Assembly: GCA_018432315.1 (NCBI GenBank)
Contig: JAHDLB010000007.1
Span: 62,001 to 126,000, forward strand
Source: Anaerolineae bacterium
GTDB lineage: Bacteria > Chloroflexota > Anaerolineae > Aggregatilineales > Aggregatilineaceae
Direction: 5' to 3'
DNA length: 64,000 nucleotides
The number at the start of each line of letters is the position of its first letter. The stretch's first letter is position 1. Made by a program: the position numbers and the translations under genes. The notes under the pieces were generated by a model, which was given only the letters and a program-made list of their open reading frames with translations, was not told where the DNA came from and did no database searches. Positions 48,239-63,371 of this stretch are shown here, one piece after another.

Positions 48239-49180
48239 ATGTCCAACACAACGGCCATACGTATCGAAAATCTGCACAAACATTTCGGCTGGCGGAAGAG
48301 CAAGCGCGTCCAGGCGGTGAAGAACCTCAACCTGGAGGTAGCCGCCGGCCAGGTCTACGGCTTCCTGGGGCCCAACGGCGCCGGGAAGACGACCACCATC
48401 CGGGTGCTGCTCGACCTGATCCGGCCCAGCCAGGGCGACGTTTACCTGTTCGGCAAGCACGTCCAGCGCGAGCGCGAGGTGCTGAGCCGGGTCGGCTCGC
48501 TGGTCGAGGGCGCGTCGTTCTACGACTTTCTGAGCGGGCGGCGCAACCTGGAGATATTCGCGCTCACGTCCAATCTCGATCTGCCGCGCGCGCGGTTCGA
48601 CGAGGTGCTGAAACTGGTCGATATGGAGGCGCGCTCCGTGCGGCGGGTCAAAGGCTATTCCACCGGGATGAAGCAGCGCCTGGGCATCGCGGCGGCGATG
48701 CTGACCGATCCCGATTTGCTCATCCTGGACGAGCCGGCCAACGGGCTGGACCCGCAAGGCATCAGCGAAATACGCGCGCTGGTGCGCAGGCTGGCCGACC
48801 AATACGGCAAGACCATCTTCCTGTCCAGCCACCAGTTGGGCGAAGTCGAGCAGGTCTGCGACCGGGTCGCGATCGTCAACAAGGGCGAGCTGGTCCGCGA
48901 GGGGCGCGTGGCCGACCTGGTGACGGCGAAAGCGCAGTTTCGCATCCGGGCCAACCCCGTCGAGCGGGCGATGGCCGTGATCGACGGGCATTGGACGACC
49001 ACGCCCCAGGCCGGCAGCGATGACGCCCTGCTGGTCGACGTGGCGGACGGCGAGACGCCCCTCGTCGTCAAGAGGCTGGTCGACAACAACATTCAGGTCT
49101 ACGAAGTATCGCCTCACCGGCAGTCGCTGGAGGACTACTTCTTATCCGTGACGGAAGGGGAAAACTCGCATGTGGGTTAG
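48239..49180 (+). CDS. ABC exporter ATP-binding protein (BcrA/CcmA-like)
   Basis: The 313-residue ATPase has Walker A (GPNGAGKTTTIRVL), a signature of the form YSTGMKQRLGIA, Walker B (LLILDEPANGLDP) and an H-loop (LSSHQLGEVEQ). AGGAGG lies four bases before the ATG. It is divergent from a two-component system, and its 3' end overlaps the permease gene by 11 bases. This arrangement matches peptide-antibiotic resistance exporters of the BcrAB type. The actual substrate is unknown. Confidence 0.92.
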   Translation: MSNTTAIRIENLHKHFGWRKSKRVQAVKNLNLEVAAGQVYGFLGPNGAGKTTTIRVLLDLIRPSQGDVYLFGKHVQREREVLSRVGSLVEGASFYDFLSGRRNLEIFALTSNLDLPRARFDEVLKLVDMEARSVRRVKGYSTGMKQRLGIAAAMLTDPDLLILDEPANGLDPQGISEIRALVRRLADQYGKTIFLSSHQLGEVEQVCDRVAIVNKGELVREGRVADLVTAKAQFRIRANPVERAMAVIDGHWTTTPQAGSDDALLVDVADGETPLVVKRLVDNNIQVYEVSPHRQSLEDYFLSVTEGENSHVG

Positions 49181-50039
49181 ATTGTTCCGCGCCGAATGGC
49201 GCAAGATTACCGGCAACCGCTGGGCGACGGGCTGCATGATCGGGATCTTCCCGGCGTTGGCGTTTCTGGTGATCGTCCTCGGCCTGCTGGCGGCAGCCTT
49301 CTCGTCCAGCTTCCGGGCGAGCTTCGAAGACAACCTCTGGACCGAGCTTGCCATCGTCCCCTGGCTGATCCCGAACAACCCGCTGGGGCGGGGCCTGCTG
49401 CTCGGCTTCACGGCGGTGCTGTTCGCCGGGGAATACCAGTGGAACACCTGGAAGACGATCGTGCCGCGCAGCCAGCGCGTGCCGCTCATCCTGGTCAAGT
49501 TCGTCGCGGTCGCGCTGTTCGTCGTCTTCGCGTTCACGCTGATGTCGGTTATATGGGGCGTGGGCGGGGGGCTGCTGGCGCTGGCAACCGATACGGGCTA
49601 CGGCCCGGCGCTGTCCAGCGACGTGCTCAGGGACTTCGCCACCGATTACGGGCGGCAAATGCTCTACGCGTTCGTCGGCACCATGATCGCCGCCGGGTAC
49701 GCCTCGCTCGCCGCGATGATCACCCGGTCGATTCTGGGCAGCGCAATCACCGGCATCGTCCTCGCCATCGGCGAGACAATGCTGCTCGTCCCGCTGTACC
49801 TGATTTCGAGTTTGCTGGACACGAACACGTTCCTGCACTTCTACCGGTTTCTGCCCAGCTACAACCTGCTCAACGTGCTGTCCTGGTCGTACGACAAATC
49901 CGCCAGCGGTCTCGAGCTTCCCTCCGGCGGCATCGTCACCGACAGCCGGCTCTTTTCCGAAGGGGTGCTGGCGTGCTGGGTGATCGGCCTGATCGCGCTC
50001 ACCGCGGTCCTGTTCCAGCGCCAGGACATCACCAACTGA
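49170..50039 (+). CDS. ABC exporter membrane protein (ABC-2/BcrB type)
   Basis: The 289-residue protein starts WVRLFRAEWRKITGNRW, a typical ABC-2 N terminus, and has about six helices including LAFLVIVLGLLAAAF and IGLIALTAVLFQR at the end. It overlaps the ATPase gene by 11 bases and must form the exporter with it. It ends 27 bases from the convergent glycan-locus gene. Confidence 0.88.
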   Translation: MWVRLFRAEWRKITGNRWATGCMIGIFPALAFLVIVLGLLAAAFSSSFRASFEDNLWTELAIVPWLIPNNPLGRGLLLGFTAVLFAGEYQWNTWKTIVPRSQRVPLILVKFVAVALFVVFAFTLMSVIWGVGGGLLALATDTGYGPALSSDVLRDFATDYGRQMLYAFVGTMIAAGYASLAAMITRSILGSAITGIVLAIGETMLLVPLYLISSLLDTNTFLHFYRFLPSYNLLNVLSWSYDKSASGLELPSGGIVTDSRLFSEGVLACWVIGLIALTAVLFQRQDITN

Positions 50040-50066: not shown

Positions 50067-52130
50067 TCATGAGGGCACAGACGCGCTGCCGGATGCCCGC
50101 AACACCGCGCGGGGAGGGATCGCCAGTTCCCTCTCCCCGGCGGAGGTGGTCAACGTCAGGCCGCGCGTCTCGGCGGCGGGGTTGTAGAGGAGGAAGCGCC
50201 GCTCCCCCGGAATCGGCCCAAGCTCCACGCAGGGCACGTCCAGGCTCAGGCACAGCACGTCGGGCTGGTCCACCGCGCCCAGCCCGTCGAACAGCAGCGC
50301 GCTCCAGAACACCTCCCCCGCGCCGTACAATTCCTTGCCCAGGTGCGCCATCGAGGCGGACTCGGCAGTCGCCAGGTCTTCGTAGGGGATGGACGGGCAC
50401 GGCCCGCGCCGGAGATCGGCGGGCAGGAACGGGTCGAAGAACGCGACGTTGTGGCAGCGCTGCAGGTTCGCCACAGCCGCCATCAGCGGCGCGGGGCCGA
50501 TCTCCGACCGGAGCAGCTCCGGCCACGCGATCAGCACTTCGACGTTTTCCTTGAAGGCCGGGTAGCACAACGAGGCGCACGCCTGGAACATCCCGCGCGG
50601 ATCGTAGGATGGCACAGCCGGGTCGCGGCTCCAATAGGCCATGCGCAGCGCCAGCCGGGTGAAGTCCGTGGCCACCCGCGCCCAACCGCCAGCCGGATCG
50701 ATCCCCTGCCGGTGCAGGTAGGCCGCGCTGGCGGCGGCGAACGACAACTGCTGCGGCTCGTGGGTGAGCTGGTGCGGGGGGAGCCGGTGCAGCACGCGCA
50801 GCGCTCGAATGGCTTCATCCAGCCAGCCGCCGGCGCCGCCGTCCAACTGGTGGGCGATCACGCATCCGGCGGCGTACAACCCGCCCACGCCGGCGTTCAA
50901 CAGGCTGGCGCGCGGCTCCCAGTCCGTCGCGTCGGCAAACAGTGGGAACAGGTAGCCAGTGTTGTGGGCCAACTGCCGCGCGCCGTGCAGCGCGTTCCGG
51001 AACATGGCGAGCAGCGCGCCGTCCCCGGTGAGATACGCCACCCACGGCAGCTTGATCAGGGCGTTTTCCAGGAAGTACCACGTATCCATGAAACTGTCGC
51101 CGTCGCGCGGGGGGAAGCCGTTGGCGACGTAGTCCCACTGCGGGCGGTCGAACAGCGGCAGCGTGGCGAGCAGGCGCTCGGCCAGGGCATCGGCGCGCGG
51201 GTCCGGGTGGGCCTGCCGCCACAGCAGCAGCGGCCACAGCACGTCGAGCTGCGTCATCAGCTCGAAGCCGCGCGGCGTGTCGCGGCCCGCCGCGGAGCTT
51301 CCGCGCACGTACGCCCGCAGCCCGTCCCGCCCCTGGGCTGTCACCCAACAGGCATCGTGTCCCAGGTCGTCCAGCGTGCGCCCCGTCATGACTTGCCACG
51401 GAATCGCGTCCGGGTGCACGCTAGGCGCGGGATCGAGCAGCGGCGCCAGCGCGTCGACCAGCGCCTGCTGCGCTTCCCAGGGCGACGGGATCGCCGCCCG
51501 GCGGCGCTGGGTGAGCCACCAGCGGAAGCGGTGATCGCCCGGCTCCAACCGGAACAGCACGTCCGGCGCGTTGGGCAGCAGCCCGATCCCGTAGCGCCCC
51601 ACCGGGCGATACGCGGTCACCTCGCGCACAGTGAAGTGGTAGAAGCGGCGCGGCGCCCACAGGAACGCGTCGCCGGGAAAATAGCAGATCGTCTCGGTGC
51701 CCGTCGCGTGATCGTACAGGTACCCGGCGGCGAGGTCGTTGCCGGGCAGGCCCCCCTGGTTGACGGTCGACGCGCGCAGCACGGTCTGCCGCCACGTGTG
51801 CGCCTGCCGCGCGTTCAGCTCGTCCAGCGCCGCGATCCACAGGATCATGGCGGGATTCAGGTCGAAAGGCTGCTCGACCTGCACGAGCGTATCCAGCCAG
51901 AAGCCGCCCGCTTCCGGGGATATGCGCGCTTGCCAGCGCCATCCCGGCCCCACTCCGGCCAGCGTGTCGGCCCCGGCCTCGGACGGTTCCAGGCTGTCGA
52001 TCGGGCGGAAGCCCGCCGCCGCTGCGGGGGCCCACTCCGCGCCGTGACGCACTTCGGTCACCAGCACCCATGTGTCGCCGCTGCCCCGCGTGATGCCCAG
52101 CCGCATCGAGCCGCTTTCGAGCCAGTCCAC
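50067..52130 (-). CDS. unknown (alpha/alpha)-barrel-like protein, last gene of the glycan locus
   Basis: The 687-residue protein has no signal peptide. The first half looks beta-rich, and the second half is helical with repeated aromatic and Trp/Tyr-rich segments (DSFMDTWYFLENALIKLPWV, GWARVATDFTRLALRMAYWS) of the kind seen in (alpha/alpha)6 glycosidases. I recognise no known family and no catalytic motif. The start is a GTG at 52130, four bases after the upstream gene's stop, with GAGGCGG nearby, while ATG at 52106 is an alternative. Its position at the end of the operon suggests a cytoplasmic glycan-processing role, which is inference only. Confidence 0.72.
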   Translation of the reverse strand: MDWLESGSMRLGITRGSGDTWVLVTEVRHGAEWAPAAAAGFRPIDSLEPSEAGADTLAGVGPGWRWQARISPEAGGFWLDTLVQVEQPFDLNPAMILWIAALDELNARQAHTWRQTVLRASTVNQGGLPGNDLAAGYLYDHATGTETICYFPGDAFLWAPRRFYHFTVREVTAYRPVGRYGIGLLPNAPDVLFRLEPGDHRFRWWLTQRRRAAIPSPWEAQQALVDALAPLLDPAPSVHPDAIPWQVMTGRTLDDLGHDACWVTAQGRDGLRAYVRGSSAAGRDTPRGFELMTQLDVLWPLLLWRQAHPDPRADALAERLLATLPLFDRPQWDYVANGFPPRDGDSFMDTWYFLENALIKLPWVAYLTGDGALLAMFRNALHGARQLAHNTGYLFPLFADATDWEPRASLLNAGVGGLYAAGCVIAHQLDGGAGGWLDEAIRALRVLHRLPPHQLTHEPQQLSFAAASAAYLHRQGIDPAGGWARVATDFTRLALRMAYWSRDPAVPSYDPRGMFQACASLCYPAFKENVEVLIAWPELLRSEIGPAPLMAAVANLQRCHNVAFFDPFLPADLRRGPCPSIPYEDLATAESASMAHLGKELYGAGEVFWSALLFDGLGAVDQPDVLCLSLDVPCVELGPIPGERRFLLYNPAAETRGLTLTTSAGERELAIPPRAVLRASGSASVPS

Positions 52131-53305: not shown

Positions 53306-54430
53306 TCAGGCCATCACCGCGACCGTCTGGCCGGTCGCGCCGCTCTCGGTGGCGGCAAGCGCGACCGCCAGGCTCGCCAGTCCGTCCTCCGGCGTGACGA
53401 CCAGCGGCGCGTCCCCCCGGATCGCCGCGACGAGAGTCCGCATCCCCGCCTGGATGGCGCGCCGGTAATCCCCCTGGCGGTCGGGCGCCTCGATTCGCGC
53501 TTCCACGCGCGCGGCGAGCGTCTCGGTCGCGCCCCCATGCGCGACGACGGCGCGCTCGCCCTCGTACCGCGCCAGCACGCGGAGATCGCCGCCCAGCATC
53601 TCGCCGAGCGCGGCCAGCCCGCCCGCATCGACCAGCCCCGACAGCGCCAGTTCGGTGGGAATCCAGCCGGACAGCGTGAGGTGACCGCGCGCGCACGCGA
53701 CGCGAATCGTGGTCTGCTCGATGAAACCGATCCGGTTGAAGCTGTGATAGAACGTCGCCAGGACGCTATCCCCATAGCGGACGGTCGCGCTCACCCGGTC
53801 CGCGCGGCCATCATCCCGCGCCTGGACCGTGCCGCTGGCAGCGTCCGGCCCGCGGCCTGCCAGTTGGTTGCACGCGTCGAAGAAGTGAACGCCGTGCTCC
53901 ACGTGAATCCCACCGCTCTGCGCCGGGTCCCAAAACCAGTGATCGGGCAGCAACGTGTCGTCCGTGGCGAAGTTCTCCAGCGAAAAATACTGCAGCGGGC
54001 CGAACGCGCCGCTCCGGACGATCTGCGCGGTGAGTTGGTGCAGGGGATGGAAGCGCAGCACGTAATCGACCGTAAGCTGGACTCCCGCCTCGCGCGCCGC
54101 CCCGATGACCCGCCGCGCATCGTCGAGCGACGTGGCGAGCGGCTTCTCGACGAACAAGTGCTTGCCCGCCCGCGCTGCGCCCAGCGCCATCGACGCGTGC
54201 AGGTGGGGCGGCGTGTTGATCGCCACGATGTCCACGCCGGGATCGGCCAGCAGGTCCTCGAAACGCGTGTAGACGCGCGCGCCGAACGCTGCCGCCATCC
54301 GGGCGCGGGCCGGGTCCACATCGGCGGCAGCGGCGACGGCGCACTCCGGCATCTCGGCGAACGCGTCCAGGCAGAAGCGCCCGAAACCGCCCACCCCGGC
54401 CAGCCCGATCCCCATTCTGTGCTCAGCCAT
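53306..54430 (-). CDS. Gfo/Idh/MocA family oxidoreductase
   Basis: The 374-residue protein has an N-terminal dinucleotide-binding region (GIGLAGVGGFGRFCLDAFAE), then NTPPHLHASMA and the EKP motif (LFVEKPLATSL). The catalytic-region histidine stretch GGIHVEHGVHFFD near the middle is intact. The family oxidises or reduces sugars, inositols and glycosides with NAD(P), and some members cleave glycosides by a redox route. It sits 12 bases downstream of GH130 in a glycan operon, so it probably converts a sugar released by these enzymes. Confidence 0.9.
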   Translation of the reverse strand: MAEHRMGIGLAGVGGFGRFCLDAFAEMPECAVAAAADVDPARARMAAAFGARVYTRFEDLLADPGVDIVAINTPPHLHASMALGAARAGKHLFVEKPLATSLDDARRVIGAAREAGVQLTVDYVLRFHPLHQLTAQIVRSGAFGPLQYFSLENFATDDTLLPDHWFWDPAQSGGIHVEHGVHFFDACNQLAGRGPDAASGTVQARDDGRADRVSATVRYGDSVLATFYHSFNRIGFIEQTTIRVACARGHLTLSGWIPTELALSGLVDAGGLAALGEMLGGDLRVLARYEGERAVVAHGGATETLAARVEARIEAPDRQGDYRRAIQAGMRTLVAAIRGDAPLVVTPEDGLASLAVALAATESGATGQTVAVMA

Positions 54431-54442
54431 GCCACCCCCTGG

Positions 54443-55321
54443 TTATGTCTTGGCGAAGGCGCGAACCTCCGCCTTGCTGACCGACGCGACCGCCATGACG
54501 TGATCGCCGCCGCCGTAGTAAATGTGATAGGCGTCCTCGGTTTCGATGCCGCCGCAGGTGAACACGACGTTGGGCACGTCGCCCCACTGCTCGAACGGCC
54601 CCAGCGGGCAGAGGACCGGCTCGTCCTGGCGCTTGAGAATCCGCGCCGGGTCGTCCAGGTCGTGCAGCGCCACGCCCAGGCAGTAGACGCGGTCTTCGTT
54701 GTAGCCGTGATAGATGTTGAGCCAGCCCCACGGCGTCTTGAAGACCGGCCCGCCCGCGCCGATGCGCACGCTGTCCCACTGGCCGGGCCGCGGTTGCATG
54801 ATGCTCTGGTGATCGGTCCAGTGCAGCAGGTCGTCCGAATAGGCCAGCCAGATGTCCGGCGGGCGGCGGTGGAACATGGCGTAGCGACCGCCAATCTTCT
54901 CCGGGAACAGGACCGCATCCTTGTTGTCTTCGTCCGGCAGCACGACGCCCAGCCGCTCCCACGCGATCAGGTTCGTGCTGCGCGCCAGCGCGACGCGCGT
55001 CCCCTGCGGCGAGTACGCGGTGTAGAGCATGTAAAACACGCCGTCCAGCTCGGTGACGCGCGGGTCCTCCACGCCAAAGGATTCAACCTCGTTCGCCGGA
55101 GCCACCACCGGCTCGGCCAGGCGGTTGAAGTGATACCCGTCGGCGCTGACCGCGCACCCGATCCGCGAGATGCGGTCCAGGCCTTGGGCGCGGTAGAGCA
55201 TGTAGATCAGGCCATTGTGGCGCGCCATCGCCGCGTTGAAGACGTTATCCGTCTCCCAGGCATTCAGCGGAGACGGGACCAGCAGCGGGTTTCCCGGATA
55301 GCGCGTCAGTGTCAAGCTCAT
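54443..55321 (-). CDS. GH130 family enzyme (beta-mannoside phosphorylase or mannosidase type)
   Basis: The 292-residue protein has a five-bladed propeller-type pattern with the GH130 landmark GVEDPRVT near residue 82, LYRAQG, and repeated ILKR/RRPPDIWLAYS-like segments. GH130 members act on beta-mannosides, some with phosphate and others by hydrolysis. Which class this is would depend on phosphate-binding residues I cannot align here. It has no signal peptide, so it acts in the cytoplasm on imported oligosaccharides. This is the strongest clue that the locus handles a mannose-containing glycan. A GAGAGAGG element precedes the ATG. Confidence 0.85.
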   Translation of the reverse strand: MSLTLTRYPGNPLLVPSPLNAWETDNVFNAAMARHNGLIYMLYRAQGLDRISRIGCAVSADGYHFNRLAEPVVAPANEVESFGVEDPRVTELDGVFYMLYTAYSPQGTRVALARSTNLIAWERLGVVLPDEDNKDAVLFPEKIGGRYAMFHRRPPDIWLAYSDDLLHWTDHQSIMQPRPGQWDSVRIGAGGPVFKTPWGWLNIYHGYNEDRVYCLGVALHDLDDPARILKRQDEPVLCPLGPFEQWGDVPNVVFTCGGIETEDAYHIYYGGGDHVMAVASVSKAEVRAFAKT

Positions 55322-55345: not shown

Positions 55346-55969
55346 TCATACAACCATGTCGGGCAGTTTGCCATATTTAGTCAGGCGTTCGGTCACGGCC
55401 CGGCTGCCCAGCAGCGCGACAAAACTGGTCAGAAAAACCGCGAGCGGCAGGATGGTCAACAGGCTGAGCACCAGCGCCAGCGCGGCCGTGCCCAACAGGA
55501 CGAAATCGTAGACCGGATTCGCCAGCGCCAGAAAGAGCGCGTTCTTCAGCGCGAGCCGCAGGTGCGCCACCGGCTGCACGACCAGAAACGGCCAGGTGTA
55601 GAACTGCACGGCGATCCACAACAACCCGGCGCACACGAACATCACCTGGATGAACACGCCCACGGCGCCCGCCGTCCTGCCGTAAAAGTCGATCCCCACC
55701 ACGAGGATCGCGGCCACGACCGCGTTCGCCAGCGCCCAGCGATAGCTCACCCAGGCGTAGCGCTGCATCCCCAGCCACAGATCGCTGAAGTGCGCGCCCT
55801 TGCCCCGCGCGAGGCTGTGGGTCACCACGTACAGGCCGGCGGTCGCGGGCGGCAGCAGGATCACCGTCATGCCCAGCAGGAACCACACAAAGTTCATCGT
55901 CGCCAGCCCGACCAGGCCGTTATACCAGTCACGGACGGTTTCCCACACGACATCCAACGCGGCGCGCAT
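55346..55969 (-). CDS. DUF624 (YesL-like) membrane protein
   Basis: This 207-residue protein has about four or five membrane helices and a start of the YesL type (VRDWYNGLVGLATMNFVWFL, then LLPPATAGLYVV). DUF624 members are found in sugar ABC and glycan utilisation operons, but their exact task is unknown. The ATG at 55969 shares its first base with the preceding TGA, so its translation is coupled to the large secreted protein. It lies 24 bases before the GH130 gene. Confidence 0.85.
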   Translation of the reverse strand: MRAALDVVWETVRDWYNGLVGLATMNFVWFLLGMTVILLPPATAGLYVVTHSLARGKGAHFSDLWLGMQRYAWVSYRWALANAVVAAILVVGIDFYGRTAGAVGVFIQVMFVCAGLLWIAVQFYTWPFLVVQPVAHLRLALKNALFLALANPVYDFVLLGTAALALVLSLLTILPLAVFLTSFVALLGSRAVTERLTKYGKLPDMVV

Positions 55970-58467
55970 CACGGCTCCTCGGCCACGATCACGTCGCCGG
56001 TGCGCGTGTCGTAGGTGAGCGTCAGCCGCGCGCCGTCCGGCCCGGCAAACACGCGCTGCGCGACGACCGGCTGGATCAGGAAGCCATCGACGTCCACGCG
56101 GCGCAGCGGCTCCGACCCGGCATAGGTCACGTGCAGGACATGGTCGCCCTCGGCCAGCGCCACCGGCCCATCGCCCACCCGATCGAGCCACAGGTAGCGG
56201 CGATCCGGGGCCGTGTTGGCGGGCACGACCATCTGATCGCCGCCGTCCAGCGACACGCCCACCGCCAGCGCGCGATCGCCCGCCGCCAGCACTTCCTCCG
56301 CGCCGCCCAGCGCGTCCAGGTCGCTGAGATCGTTCACCAGGATCAGCGTCGCCAAGTTCGACGCGGTATCGGGATCGGCGCCGGTCAGGTCGAGGAACGA
56401 GTCGCCGCCGATGCCGCGCCCCACCTCCACACCCAGCTCCTGCCCCGCCGCGATGGTCCGCACGCGCAGCGATCGAAACGGCAGCCGCGCCTCGTAGACG
56501 TAGCCACCGCCGCCCTCGAACGCCTGCCACGCCAGCTCCGCACCCGGGAACCACGTCGAGGCGACCCAGTCCCACACCTGGGGGCCGCGCGGCGTCTGGG
56601 CCAGCGTCACCTTGGCGCTCACGCGCTGGCCGCGCCCGCCCGCATCGACATAGACCCACAGCGCGTCATAGCTCCACACCGACGGGCCGATCTCCGGCTG
56701 CTCGAACACCGGATCGCGCACCGACGCGGCCAGGTAGAGATTGTCGTCGTCCCACATGAACCGGACGTCGAAGCTGTCCACCTCCGGGCCGCGCCACAGC
56801 GCCGCGCCGCGCAGGAACTGGCGCTGCGTATTGGCCGAGAAGACCGGCACGTCCGCCCATTCGTCGAGCACGCCGTCGATGGCCGGGGCCGCCGGGGCGC
56901 GCGTGGCGACCAGCGTCGTCTCCTCGCTGGCGATGGCCTGCCGCTGGTGGGCGATGTACAGCCAATAGTCGCCCGCCTCCGGCACGCTGAACGGGATCTC
57001 CAGCACGTCGCCCGCGCCCAGGCTGTAGTACTGGCCGAAGCTGAAGTACGCCTCGCCGGTCCAATCGCGCTCGCGGAAGTCCGGCTTGCCCGCGACCGGT
57101 GTGCCCGATTCGGCCTCGACGCGGACGTAGGGCCGGGCGGCGGCTTCCTGATAGTCGAGATAGCGGGCGGCGACCGGGTCCTCGTGGACCACCAGCAGGG
57201 CCAGCAGCGCCTCGATGGTGGATTCCGCGCCCGCGTTGCGGTTGATGCGCCACTCGACCGGCCCATCGACGCCGTCGAAGCAGCGCCCGGTTTCGGGATC
57301 GTAGACCGGCACGCCCGCCATGTTGTTCCCGAAGAACCACGAGGCCGCCAGCCCGGCGTAGCGCGCGTATTTCTCCTGGCCTGTCGCGCGGTAGAGGGCC
57401 ATGTAGCCCTGCACCAGCATATCGGTCCCATACGCGATCTGCCCCAGGCGGCGCGGCAGGATGCCGATCTCGCGGATGCGCTCGAACGCAAGCTGGCGCA
57501 GCATGAAGGTTTCCGCCTCGTAGGCCGCCGAGTCGATCCAGTCCCCCCGGTTCAGCGCCGCGCCCGCCTCGGCCAGCGCGTGGACCATGTGGCTGCCCCA
57601 GGCGTGCCAGTAGCCGGGCGCGTTGGTCGTGACCGGGTGCATCCCGAACGGATAGGTGGCGCTGTCGCCCAGCACGTACTCGCTGATCCCGCTGGCGACG
57701 TGTTCGATCAGCGCCTCCGTCGTGGCGTTCGGATTGGCGCGGTAGTAGCCGGTGAGGGCCAGCAGCATCACCGCGGAGACGTCCGCCGCGCCGCCCGGAA
57801 TCCACGCCGGGATCGAGAAGCCGTGCAACTGGCTGTACACGCCGCGATTGTGCAGCACGTCCCCGGCCAGCGCGCGCTCGGTGCGCTGGTAGGCAGCCTG
57901 CAAGTCGGCGGCGTAGGCCGGATCGACTCCCGCGAAGACGCGGGCGCCCTCGGCCAGCGCCCACAGGCCGCGCATCGCCCACCAGCCGGTGAGCGTCTTG
58001 TAGCTGGTGATCCCCTCCGTGTTGATCGTCCCTTCGGCATCGAACACGAAGTTATAGAACCAGCCATCCTCCGCCTGCATGTAGCGCGCGAAGTCCAGGC
58101 ACAGGCGCGCCTGGTCCAGCGCCCGCGCGTCGCCGGTTTGCTCGTAGTAAGCCAGGTACACCAGCCCGGCGCGTGCCACGTCGTCCACCGCGGCGATGCC
58201 CTCCCCCGCCGCATCGACCCACGCGTACTCCGGATACTCGGAGTAGATGTGCACGATCGCCACGTCCCGATCGCCAAACGTGACCGGCTCGGTGAGGAAC
58301 AGCAGGTGTTCGAGGTTCACGAGACCGTGACGCATCGGGCCATCCTGCCCGCGAACGGCGGGCACGCCCAGGGGCGCGATCGCCGCCGCGACGATGCCCA
58401 GCGCGATCAGCAGCGCGCACGGCGCGCGCAGCCCCGCACGAAACCCCGGCAGTCGAACGTGCGCCAT
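55969..58467 (-). CDS. large secreted (alpha/alpha)-barrel-like protein with a CBM9-like module
   Basis: The 832-residue protein has a signal peptide (about 1-40) with VRG before Gln. The next 400 residues are a helical barrel-like region with GWFYNFVFDAEG and PGYWHAWGSHMVHAL. A beta-sandwich stretch follows, and a CBM9-like module spans about 522-690 (PAIDGVLDEWADVPVF, FMWDDDNLYLAASVRDPVF, then the Trp-containing end of the module). It resembles no catalytic family I can name, so the reaction is unknown. The CBM9-like part suggests it binds glycan outside the cell. It is followed by DUF624 and preceded by a permease gene at 5 bases. Confidence 0.75.
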   Translation of the reverse strand: MAHVRLPGFRAGLRAPCALLIALGIVAAAIAPLGVPAVRGQDGPMRHGLVNLEHLLFLTEPVTFGDRDVAIVHIYSEYPEYAWVDAAGEGIAAVDDVARAGLVYLAYYEQTGDARALDQARLCLDFARYMQAEDGWFYNFVFDAEGTINTEGITSYKTLTGWWAMRGLWALAEGARVFAGVDPAYAADLQAAYQRTERALAGDVLHNRGVYSQLHGFSIPAWIPGGAADVSAVMLLALTGYYRANPNATTEALIEHVASGISEYVLGDSATYPFGMHPVTTNAPGYWHAWGSHMVHALAEAGAALNRGDWIDSAAYEAETFMLRQLAFERIREIGILPRRLGQIAYGTDMLVQGYMALYRATGQEKYARYAGLAASWFFGNNMAGVPVYDPETGRCFDGVDGPVEWRINRNAGAESTIEALLALLVVHEDPVAARYLDYQEAAARPYVRVEAESGTPVAGKPDFRERDWTGEAYFSFGQYYSLGAGDVLEIPFSVPEAGDYWLYIAHQRQAIASEETTLVATRAPAAPAIDGVLDEWADVPVFSANTQRQFLRGAALWRGPEVDSFDVRFMWDDDNLYLAASVRDPVFEQPEIGPSVWSYDALWVYVDAGGRGQRVSAKVTLAQTPRGPQVWDWVASTWFPGAELAWQAFEGGGGYVYEARLPFRSLRVRTIAAGQELGVEVGRGIGGDSFLDLTGADPDTASNLATLILVNDLSDLDALGGAEEVLAAGDRALAVGVSLDGGDQMVVPANTAPDRRYLWLDRVGDGPVALAEGDHVLHVTYAGSEPLRRVDVDGFLIQPVVAQRVFAGPDGARLTLTYDTRTGDVIVAEEP

Positions 58468-58472
58468 CGCCC

Positions 58473-59392
<920 letters not shown>

Positions 59393-59396
<4 letters not shown>

Positions 59397-60565
59397 GCGC
59401 CTCCCGCTTCTTTCTCGCGCGCGCCTTCGTAGAACACCCAGGCCGCCGAGGACCGGAACACCAGCAGCGTGATCGCAATGATAAAGACGGCATACAGCCA
59501 GCCAACCGCCGACGCGTATCCCATCCGGCCAAAGTTGAAGGCTTCGTTGTATAAGAACCAGTTCACGAACCAGCCATCTTCGCGCTCGGTTGGAATGAAC
59601 GCCTGCTCGGTGAACAGTTGCAGCGCCCCAATTACCCCCATGATCAGCACGTAGAACAACGTCGGGCTGAGCATCGGGATCGTGACGTGCCGGAATTTGA
59701 CCCAGTTCCCCGCGCCATCGATCGACGCGGCCTCGTACAGGTCCGGCGGGATGTTCTTGAGCCCCGCCAGCAGGATCACCGTGTTCGCGCCGAAGATGCC
59801 CCACATGCTCATGATCACGAACGACGGCAGCACGAGGTTCTTGTCGGTGAACCAGCCGAGCGGCTCGGAATTGGTCAGGTCGTAGATGGGACCCAGCGCC
59901 CAGTTGATCAGGCCGCGGTTGGGCGCAAACAGCCAGAACCACAGCAGCGCCACCGCCGCCGCCGGAAGCACCGCCGGCAGGTAATACAGCGTGCGCCAGT
60001 AGCCCACCCCTTTCACATTCTGGTTGAGCAGCAGCGCGACCCCCAGCGCGCCGGCCATCCCCAGCGGAATCGACAGGACCGCGTAACGCAGCGTCAGCCA
60101 GATGGCTCGCCACAGATAGATATCCGTGGCGGCAATAACGTAGCGCGTGTCGCCGATCACGACGCTGTCCAGCTCGCGGTAGCGCACGATGTCCGGCCCT
60201 TCGGCCTGCAACTGGCCGAGCTTGGCGATCGACACGCGCTCATCCTTGTCGAATTCCACGATCTTGAAGGACAGCGCGCGCTTGTAGTTGAAGAGCGGGT
60301 CCTTGAGCGACCTGGGCTCGTCCCACAAAATGTTGTATTCGGTGAACCCCAAATAAAACGACAGCAGAATCGGGAAGGCGGTCAGCAGGATGCGGCCAAC
60401 CAGCCAGGGCGTGATCAGCGCGAAGCCGGTCGCCGCCTCCCGTTTGACCCCCAGTTTGCGCAAGCCTTGATAAGTCAGGTAGATCAGCAGGGCCAGCACG
60501 ATGGCCGTGCCTATGTAGCGCAGGAAGGTTGGGTAGTACGAATTAAAGGCTCCAGGATCGCCCAT
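59393..60565 (-). CDS. carbohydrate ABC transporter permease (MalF type) with long outer loop, glycan locus
   Basis: The 390-residue protein is longer than most. It has an extra N-terminal helix ([19 protein letters not shown]) and an extracytoplasmic loop of about 75 residues after the second helix, before [20 protein letters not shown]. The coupling loop [20 protein letters not shown] is intact. The extra loop may interact with the binding protein. It lies after the stem-loop at 60591-60619 and overlaps the next permease by four bases. Confidence 0.9.
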
Positions 60566-60649: not shown

Positions 60650-61885
60650 CTATTGCGAGGCCAGCACGTCCTCGAGCAAGATTCGCGCGTCGGGGGCCAG
60701 CGCTTCGGCGGTGTCCTCACCGTTGAAGGCCGGGTTGAAGTAGTCGCCCCAGATCACGTCGTTGAACTCAAGATAGCCGGGGAACAGCGTGAAGCCACGC
60801 ATGTACGGCACGGCGGCGATGATGTCTTCGGCGTTGGCCTCTTTGCGCGGCTCGGAGGCTACCAGGTGCTCGACCGTCGCCTGCGAAACGCGCGGCGAGA
60901 CGATCTTCCAGCTATGGATGCCCTCGGTCAGCATGACCAGCGCCTCGTAGGCTTCGTCGGGGTGCTCGGTCTTGGCATTGATAGCCGTGGCGGCGATCCA
61001 CGCGAAGGTGGTGTTCTCGCCGGTGGCGTTGCCCTTCGGCACGGGCGAAACGCCCACATTCAGCCCTTCGACGCGGTCCAGATCATCCGCCGCGCCGCCC
61101 ATGAACATCGCCAGGCGCCCGGCCTTGAACATCTCGCCAAAGCCTTCCTCAGCGATCGTTTCCTGAGAGGGGCAGCATTCCTCGTTGTAGATCATGTCGG
61201 CGTAGAACTGCACCGCCTCGATCACCGCCGGGTCGTCCACTGGCGACTCGGCCAGGTCCTCGCTCACGACGTCGCCACCGTTGCCCCAGATCCAGATGTA
61301 GGGCGGCGGCCAGCCGTTGAGTGAGAACCCGTAGTGCTCCTCGTTGGTCAGCGCGATGGCGGCTTCCTTGAACTGGTCCCAGGTCCAGTCCGCGTTAGGG
61401 TACTCGTGGCCCATGGCGTCGAAGATGTCCTTGTTGTAGTACAGGACAACCGGCTGCGCGATCCACGGCAGGCCGTAGACGCCTTCACCCATGGCGACCG
61501 TCTGCCAGACACCGGGGAAGTAGTCGTCGGGGTTGGCCGTGTCGCGGTCGTCATTCGCCAGGTAGTCGGAAATGTCGAGCAGCACGCCGTCGAATGCCCA
61601 GGGCATATGGTCCTGGTCCAACCACATCAGGTCGGCAGCTTCGCCGCCCGCCAGCGCGGTCTGGAGCACGGTGTAGTAATCGGATGGCTTCGGCTCGTGA
61701 ACGATCTGGAAGGCGTCTTGCGACGCGTTGACGTCGTCGATGATCGCCTGGAACTCGGCGGCTTCGTCGACGCCCGCCCAGGTCGTGATCCGGAGGGTAA
61801 CCGGTTCTTGTGCGCGAGAGGTGGCGAGAGGCAGCAGCGCCACCGCCATCGCCAACACGATAGCTATTCGCAAATACTTAGCCAT
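60650..61885 (-). CDS. extracellular carbohydrate-binding protein (ABC importer) of the glycan locus
   Basis: The 411-residue protein has a signal peptide ending TSRA before Gln and a family 1 sugar-binding fold (VTLRITTWAGVDEAAEFQAI, YYTVLQTALAGGEAADLMWL, VLYYNKDIFDAMGHEYP). A purine-rich GAGGAGAG lies before the ATG at 61885. It is the first transport gene of the ten-gene locus, 86 bases after the lacI stop. The ligand is unknown. The presence of GH130 makes a mannose-containing oligosaccharide one possibility. Confidence 0.88.
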   Translation of the reverse strand: MAKYLRIAIVLAMAVALLPLATSRAQEPVTLRITTWAGVDEAAEFQAIIDDVNASQDAFQIVHEPKPSDYYTVLQTALAGGEAADLMWLDQDHMPWAFDGVLLDISDYLANDDRDTANPDDYFPGVWQTVAMGEGVYGLPWIAQPVVLYYNKDIFDAMGHEYPNADWTWDQFKEAAIALTNEEHYGFSLNGWPPPYIWIWGNGGDVVSEDLAESPVDDPAVIEAVQFYADMIYNEECCPSQETIAEEGFGEMFKAGRLAMFMGGAADDLDRVEGLNVGVSPVPKGNATGENTTFAWIAATAINAKTEHPDEAYEALVMLTEGIHSWKIVSPRVSQATVEHLVASEPRKEANAEDIIAAVPYMRGFTLFPGYLEFNDVIWGDYFNPAFNGEDTAEALAPDARILLEDVLASQ

Positions 61886-61971
61886 GTCGAGTCTCTCCTC
61901 TTTTAGGTTGCTAAACAATTTACGAACAAGGCGTATCGAACTTGTTTTCCGCCAGTAACCACGCCTCCTTT

Positions 61972-63030
61972 CTACCTGCTTGCTGCGGGCATAGAGCCGG
62001 CCTCGTCTTGATCATCAGGAGAACAGCCGCATGATTGGCGCACCATGAGTTCGGTGCCAATGCGGAGCTGGAAGCTGGCCGGTGCGTCGCGGTCGATCCG
62101 GTCGATCAAGCGCCGCGCCGCCTGGATGCCGATCTCGCGCCAGGAAATGCGCACCGTGGTCAGCGGCGGATCGTGCAAAGGCGCCCAGCCCACGTTGTCG
62201 AACCCGACGACGGCCACGTCGTCCGGCACGCGGAGGCCCTGCTCTTTGCACGCCCGGATCGCGCCGAAAGCCGTGGCGTCGTTCACCGCGATCACCCCTT
62301 CCAGGTCGGGAAAGCGCTCCAGCGCCTCGTACATGGCGCGGTAGCCGGTCTGCATCGTGGTGTCTTCCATGTAGACCACGCGCGCCTCGGCCCCGACCTC
62401 GCCCAGCGCATTCTCGTATCCCTGGCACCGCTCGCGGCTGCTGAGCCAGTCGGCGGGGCCGGAGAAGAACGCCAGGTTGTGAAGGTCGTGCGCCGCGATC
62501 AGGTGGCGCGTGATGCTGTAGCTCCCGGCCACGTTGTCGCACAAGATGGCGTCGCTGCGCGTTTCGTTCAGCAGGTTGTCGACCAGCACGAACGGGATAT
62601 TGCTGCTGTGCAGTTGGATGATGAACGACGCTTTCAGCTCCGGCCCCACCAGGATCACGCCGTCCGTTCGCTGCTGGCCGATGATCGGCACACGCAGCGC
62701 GTCTTGCATCATGCCCTGGTTGACGAAGGTCGTGATGATGTGGTAACCGTGCTCCCGCGCCTCGTGATCGACGCCCAGCATCGTCTCGTCGGGGAAATTG
62801 CAGATGGGCTGTTGGGGCGCGCGGTCGTACATGATCAGGCCGAGCGTATACGTGCGCGAGGTGGCGAGCCCTTTGGCCGCCGCGTTGGGCATGTAGCCCA
62901 TATCGCGGGCAATAGCCAGCACGCGCTCGCGCGTGTCGGCATTCACGCCCGCGCGGTCATTGAGCGTGCGCGACACGGTGGCGATCGAGACCCCGGCTTT
63001 TTCCGCGATGGTTTCCAGGCTTGGTTTCAT
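61972..63030 (-). CDS. LacI-family regulator of the glycan locus
   Basis: The 352-residue protein has the helix-turn-helix LETIAEKAGVSIATVSRTLN and hinge AAAKGLATSRTYTLGLI, and an effector domain ending GTELMVRQSCGCS. I use the ATG at 63030, because the helix-turn-helix starts directly after it. It is the first gene of the minus-strand glycan locus, with its own promoter and operator upstream. It probably represses itself and the whole locus. Confidence 0.92.
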   Translation of the reverse strand: MKPSLETIAEKAGVSIATVSRTLNDRAGVNADTRERVLAIARDMGYMPNAAAKGLATSRTYTLGLIMYDRAPQQPICNFPDETMLGVDHEAREHGYHIITTFVNQGMMQDALRVPIIGQQRTDGVILVGPELKASFIIQLHSSNIPFVLVDNLLNETRSDAILCDNVAGSYSITRHLIAAHDLHNLAFFSGPADWLSSRERCQGYENALGEVGAEARVVYMEDTTMQTGYRAMYEALERFPDLEGVIAVNDATAFGAIRACKEQGLRVPDDVAVVGFDNVGWAPLHDPPLTTVRISWREIGIQAARRLIDRIDRDAPASFQLRIGTELMVRQSCGCSPDDQDEAGSMPAASR

Positions 63031-63147
63031 TGACAGCGCCTCCGGAAGGGGTGAGTGCAACGTCACGGACCTGCATGCCTGAGCGCGTGGACGAGAGCGC
63101 TCATCGGGAACAGTGTGACACCGCAGCCAGTTCATTGCAAAAATAAC

Positions 63148-63192
63148 GTAAGCGCTTGCAATCACAATACGACGAAATCCAAAGAATGTCAA
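63148..63192 (-). promoter_or_regulatory. promoter and LacI operator of the glycan locus
   Basis: On the minus strand a perfect TTGACA (63192-63187) is 17 bases from TATTGT (63169-63164), giving a start near 63157 and a leader of about 127 bases. The near-palindrome GTAAGCGCTTGC (63148-63159) overlaps the transcription start. The remaining bases of 63031-63371 hold no gene I can support. Confidence 0.75.
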
Positions 63193-63371
63193 GGGATTGG
63201 GCGCGAAGACGATCGCCTCCGGTCGTCCAGCAACCTCCCAACCTTTTGGGCTTGTCAGAATTCGCAAATTCGGCGAAGATATTAATTGAAGGATGATCGA
63301 AAACAGACGCAAAACTGTACCTCCACCGGACCGGCGTCTTGAGCGATGCTATTTGACAGGGCAATACCGCG

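Follow-up and report, generated by a model that had tools for sequence, protein, structure and literature searches.

The stretch of DNA analysed here (64,000 nucleotides of a Chloroflexota contig, hereafter the window) carries a minus-strand operon whose final gene, the target of this study, encodes a protein that we could place in no described sequence family. In operon order, and ending with the gene that comes next after the target, the features are:

61972..63312, minus strand: LacI-family regulator (start probably nearer 63000)
60650..61918, minus strand: extracellular solute-binding protein with signal peptide, assigned by sequence; this copy has no Pfam match, orthologues at the same place match SBP_bac_1
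59393..60565, minus strand: CUT1 ABC permease
58473..59391, minus strand: CUT1 ABC permease (start inferred from homologues)
55969..58467, minus strand: secreted (alpha/alpha)6 protein with a C-terminal CBM9-like domain, the marker of this locus type (start inferred from signal peptide)
55346..55972, minus strand: DUF624-like membrane protein (Pfam score slightly under the cut-off)
54443..55321, minus strand: GH130; closest solved relatives 1,2-beta-oligomannan phosphorylase 9fj8 (9e-88) and beta-1,2-mannobiose phosphorylase 7fip (1e-75)
53306..54430, minus strand: Gfo/Idh/MocA oxidoreductase, with relatives beside target homologues in loci L001, L013, L090 and L092
52135..53295, minus strand: GH100/GDE_C-like (alpha/alpha)6 glycosidase, 386 aa (GDE_C 6e-11, Glyco_hydro_100 1e-9, alkaline invertase 5goo 8e-10)
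50067..52130, minus strand: target gene, 687 codons with a GTG start; 687-aa protein
49170-50039, plus strand: ABC-2 permease, convergent to the target

The sequence-only reading of this DNA had described a 687-residue protein at the end of an operon, separated by a 4-base gap from a GH100-like gene, and these points hold: the minus-strand run ends with the target, the upstream gene stops 4 bases before it, and the GH100-like label of that neighbour is borne out by the three matches given above. The G+C content at the three codon positions of the target ORF (0.71/0.52/0.91) is like that of the adjoining genes, which identifies its strand and frame as coding, and the protein has no signal peptide. 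The gene is real and conserved, and conservation at the protein level across phyla (see below) implies that its product is functional.

The window GH130 aligns over its full length with both 9fj8 and 7fip, with beta-1,4 enzymes far behind (2e-26 to 9e-31); its substrate is thus called by closest solved relatives within a functionally diverse family. The GH100/GDE_C-like neighbour, at only 386 aa, matches mainly the final part of the alkaline invertase barrel, and it is common to the window and L001 (66% identity). The operon also holds a second unclassified barrel protein, the secreted product of 55969-58467, which the earlier reading had not reported. This protein has no Pfam catalytic family. 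Its (alpha/alpha)6 domain (AlphaFold2 pLDDT 74.5) most resembles Yersinia YPO2471 (7tem, E 1e-16, 30% identity), a protein of solved structure that is uncharacterised and on which a literature search returned nothing; the operon protein may be an extracellular depolymerase.

Family searches and genomic context

The claim that the target belongs to no recognised family was upheld at every level of search. The single protein matched no family in Pfam, NCBIfam or the PDB sequences, even at E-values of 1-10, profiles built from 15 and 20 relatives gave only chance matches to the PDB sequences, and the relatives, each searched separately against Pfam and NCBIfam, returned no consistent match. For the Pfam models of GH15, GH63, GH65, GH100, GH127, GDE_C and GH76, there was no match from the target and no consistent match among the relatives scanned. 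The plasmid collection held no match, the viral structure library nothing convincing, and a literature search found no described beta-1,2-mannan enzyme family. Two candidates for a recent duplicate, namely the secreted barrel protein of the operon and the GH94 enzyme of locus L014, were tried with hhalign and rejected (nothing found; probability 0.1% for the latter).

A scan with one genome per species retrieved 14 relatives. Twelve are 54-66% identical to the target and come for the most part from MAGs of Chloroflexota; a Bacillota MAG and a Paceibacterota MAG supplied the remaining two, at 34% and 29% identity, respectively. Later searches added four more Bacillota genomes as well as distant Chloroflexota members. 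The gene is uncommon, being present in 14/154 genomes of the order, 4/350 genomes sampled across the phylum and 5/349 genomes of a Bacillota sample (one of these the seed genome). The distant members are secreted homologues with a lipobox from another Chloroflexota group (L090 467-2443, L091 382-2349, L092 1584-3590; 23% identity), which lie next to a Kelch-repeat protein and to a locus with CUT1 transporter, DUF624-like and Gfo/Idh genes; these Gfo/Idh neighbours share 37-39% identity with the copies in the window and in L001.

The loci that hold target orthologues encode a CUT1 sugar ABC transporter. Of the 14 genomes of the order that have a target, 12 place it immediately ahead of a second GH130, with gaps ranging from short spacers (e.g., 3-14 bp in L002, L005, L007, L009 and L010) to overlap. 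The arrangement with GH100-like and Gfo/Idh genes is seen in the remaining two, the window and L001, the target of L001 being convergent to that operon. The copy of the second GH130 that was tested (L010) has as its best PDB match Lin0857 (7e-106), which is the beta-1,2-mannobiose phosphorylase of Listeria (PMC8950772); the GH130s of the window and of L010 both give full-length matches to the beta-1,2-mannobiose/oligomannan phosphorylase type. The secreted barrel/CBM9 marker was found at high score in 14/14 target genomes vs. 30/154 of the order (hypergeometric chance 6e-12, ignoring kinship), and GH130 in 14/14 vs. 73/154 (1e-5, likewise ignoring kinship). The association with a sugar importer and, within the order, with a GH130 of beta-1,2-mannoside type is therefore stable and well supported. 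Conversely, roughly half of the loci that are similar in other respects have no target. Sixteen marker-bearing genomes lack it; inspection of 13 of these 16 showed a locus that is largely complete apart from the target, with LacI directly adjoining the second GH130 in four, and no known enzyme was found to substitute for the target in a way that hints at its function. This implies that the target is accessory and not essential to the pathway.

Outside the order, the Bacillota locus reads LacI-target-SBP-permease-permease-GH5, and its transporter proteins share 42-53% identity with their counterparts in the Chloroflexota loci. The last of these genes encodes a GH5-like protein of 656 aa (L044 2092-4062, also L045 and L046). 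GH130 lies elsewhere in the Bacillota target genomes, in loci with no target-type neighbours, or was not found, as in two near-identical genomes. The Paceibacterota locus runs GT4, barrel protein, target, GH94. The target is thus tied to the processing of imported oligosaccharides in two phyla and to carbohydrate enzymes in three. Its pathway, a point absent from the sequence-only reading, is best read as that of the beta-1,2-mannoside GH130/CUT1 transporter locus.

Predicted fold and conserved residues

An AlphaFold2 model of the target, computed from a 15-sequence alignment, is confident (pLDDT 87.9, pTM 0.90) and predicts an N-terminal beta-sandwich (~1-210), an (alpha/alpha)6 barrel of about 12 helices (~217-614) and C-terminal strands forming a small sheet (618-680). 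Foldseek against the PDB gave a list led by carbohydrate-active enzymes, with PL27 (1e-8), GH94 phosphorylases (1e-7), GH116, AGE barrels including cellobiose 2-epimerase, and GH76 as best matches (E 1e-8 to 1e-4), all ~10% identical to the target. TM-scores normalised by target length were ~0.5-0.62 for isolated barrels and ~0.3-0.4 for most full-length two-domain neighbours, so that the barrel fold is secure, whereas no solved structure closely matches the arrangement of the two domains. Assignment of the modelled protein to the (alpha/alpha)6-barrel fold class is therefore well supported.

Conservation was assessed in an alignment of 20 sequences, comprising 18 core members and two of the secreted lipoprotein homologues. 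The main motifs are:

51243..51263, minus strand: E290-L-x-T-Q-x-D296, start of barrel helix 291-307; E290, T293 and Q294 invariant (20/20)
51051..51086, minus strand: D349-T-W-Y-F-x-E-N356...K360, start of helix 350-368
50751..50762, minus strand: H457-E458-P-Q460, start of helix 459-474; E458 invariant (20/20)
50538..50564, minus strand: Y523-P-A-x-K527-E528-N-V-E531, start of helix 526-533; E528 and E531 invariant (20/20), K527 in 18/18 core members
50304..50339, minus strand: G598-K599-E-x-Y-G-A-G-E606-V-F-W609, start of helix 603-614

Together with a further block at helix 413 (N412..GGLYA), these strongly conserved blocks map to the N-terminal ends of barrel helices 291, 350, 413, 459, 526 and 603. 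In the (alpha/alpha)6 fold, the N-terminal helix ends are the usual active-site end. Five acids (E290, E458, E528, E531 and E584) are unchanged throughout the alignment, including the secreted homologues, which are 23% identical, and E290, E458, E528, E531 and D/E349 are placed by the alignment and the AlphaFold2 helix boundaries at the N-ends of barrel helices, i.e., where a putative active site would form. H457 is invariant in the core but Tyr in distant members, and no other histidine reaches 94% conservation in the core. Among basic residues, K527 is invariant in the core and K599 near-invariant in the cytoplasmic members, while the two secreted lipoproteins have Leu and Gln, respectively, at these positions. 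The suggestion that this gene was the best candidate for a new enzyme family is supported by the predicted fold, by the absence of a Pfam, NCBIfam or PDB family and by the conserved acids; judged against those three collections, the target is a supported candidate for a new carbohydrate-enzyme family.

Proposed function and comparison with known systems

The target almost certainly works on sugars, and we infer its substrate, bond and reaction type as follows. In our preferred reading, to which we give a probability of roughly one half, it is a cytoplasmic enzyme of an undescribed sequence family, built of a beta-sandwich and an (alpha/alpha)6 barrel, that processes imported oligosaccharides containing beta-1,2-mannosides, most likely with inversion, hydrolysis being slightly favoured over phosphorolysis. 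The secreted barrel protein with its CBM9-like domain would trim an external polysaccharide, the CUT1 ABC transporter would, from the gene content, import the resulting oligosaccharides, and the GH130 phosphorylases, if they act as their closest solved relatives do, would convert beta-1,2-mannosyl bonds to alpha-mannose 1-phosphate. The target would then remove or split a unit that the GH130s handle poorly, possibly the bond between a beta-1,2-mannosyl chain and another sugar, or longer chains. Two among the invariant E290, E458, E528 and E531 would serve as acid and base in a cleavage that is most likely inverting. Against this reading stand the lack of a characterised relative, the low full-length TM-scores (0.30-0.38), a GH130 substrate called from closest relatives in a functionally diverse family, the two near-identical Bacillota genomes in which a target but no GH130 was found, and the intact state of loci that lack the target.

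The conserved lysines are the reason that we keep phosphorolysis as a serious rival, although on balance we consider it improbable. The target would here be an inverting glycoside phosphorylase of a separate family with a GH94-like mechanism, in which phosphate attacks the anomeric carbon and one Glu/Asp acts as the acid. The fold search places GH94 phosphorylases near the top of its list, the core members, which are cytoplasmic, carry K527 and K599 at active-site helix ends, and phosphorylases (GH130) are the norm in the target locus. In the GH130 family itself the loss of basic residues marks hydrolases vs. phosphorylases (PMC4599007), much as Leu and Gln stand at the two lysine positions in the secreted homologues. 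However, those secreted sequences are a small sample (two, 23% identical), one or two phosphorylases are already encoded in the locus, and the target shows no profile similarity to the GH94 enzyme whose gene it adjoins in L014.

A cytoplasmic PL27-like lyase acting on a uronic-acid-containing oligosaccharide is unlikely. PL27 BACCELL_00875 does top the Foldseek list over nearly its whole length and has the same order of domains, beta-sandwich and then (alpha/alpha)6 barrel (PMC8377490), and the target family has an invariant Tyr and conserved basic residues; yet the target profile found no match to PL27 (BACCELL_00875/BT0263) in the PDB sequences searched, 5no8 included, no unsaturated-uronyl hydrolase (GH88/GH105) occurs among the locus genes scanned, and the GH130s indicate neutral mannosides. 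Still less probable is an AGE-superfamily enzyme that epimerises or isomerises sugars in the manner of cellobiose 2-epimerase or mannose isomerase, even though barrels of the AGE type recur among the fold neighbours (barrel TM 0.5-0.6) and H457 is invariant in the core. AGE catalysis requires a pair of histidines, whereas the target family conserves the one, and AGE enzymes have no N-terminal beta-sandwich. Least probable of all is a non-catalytic barrel protein (a sugar sensor or binding protein), which the accessory distribution and the adjoining LacI regulators would suit, since the retention of invariant acids and whole motifs at the active-site end at 23-30% identity fits catalysis better.

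Returning to the reading as a cytoplasmic enzyme for beta-1,2-mannosides, a broader and more tentative proposal, which we regard as possible but less likely than not to hold in full, is a new CAZy family that unites a cytoplasmic phosphorylase or hydrolase for beta-1,2-mannose oligosaccharides with secreted hydrolytic cousins that lack the basic residues, and thus both reaction types. Beta-1,2-mannans occur in Candida cell walls, in Leishmania mannogen and in some bacterial O-antigens (PMC4264767, PMC8950772). Few enzymes acting on them are known, and the bacterial ones met in this work belong to GH130, as phosphorylases or as mannosidases. A barrel enzyme that fits no class and is coupled to GH130 phosphorylases is a testable candidate both for a new glycosidase family and for a missing pathway step, and its secreted homologues would allow hydrolases and phosphorylases to be compared inside one family.

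Among solved enzymes, the PL27 L-rhamnose-alpha-1,4-D-glucuronate lyase (BACCELL_00875, 5no8) is the best full-length structural match to the target, with a beta-sandwich followed by an (alpha/alpha)6 barrel in both, but the two share only ~10% identity and the target is cytoplasmic, in a beta-1,2-mannoside locus that has no uronate genes. Cellobiose and chitobiose phosphorylases (GH94, clan GH-Q) share the domain pair and the cytoplasmic location, whereas the target is shorter (687 aa vs. about 800) and is not a member by sequence (no Pfam GH94 match; hhalign probability 0.1%). The AGE superfamily, with cellobiose 2-epimerase, and the GH76 alpha-mannanases share the barrel (TM by target length 0.5-0.62) but not the N-terminal sandwich, and have no sequence similarity to the target. 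At the level of the locus, the beta-1,2-mannoside cluster of Thermoanaerobacter X-514 (Teth514_1785-1796) comprises an ABC sugar importer, two GH130 phosphorylases, a GH5 and hypothetical proteins (PMC4264767); it differs in leading to GDP-mannose synthesis and has its GH5 in common with the Bacillota target loci.
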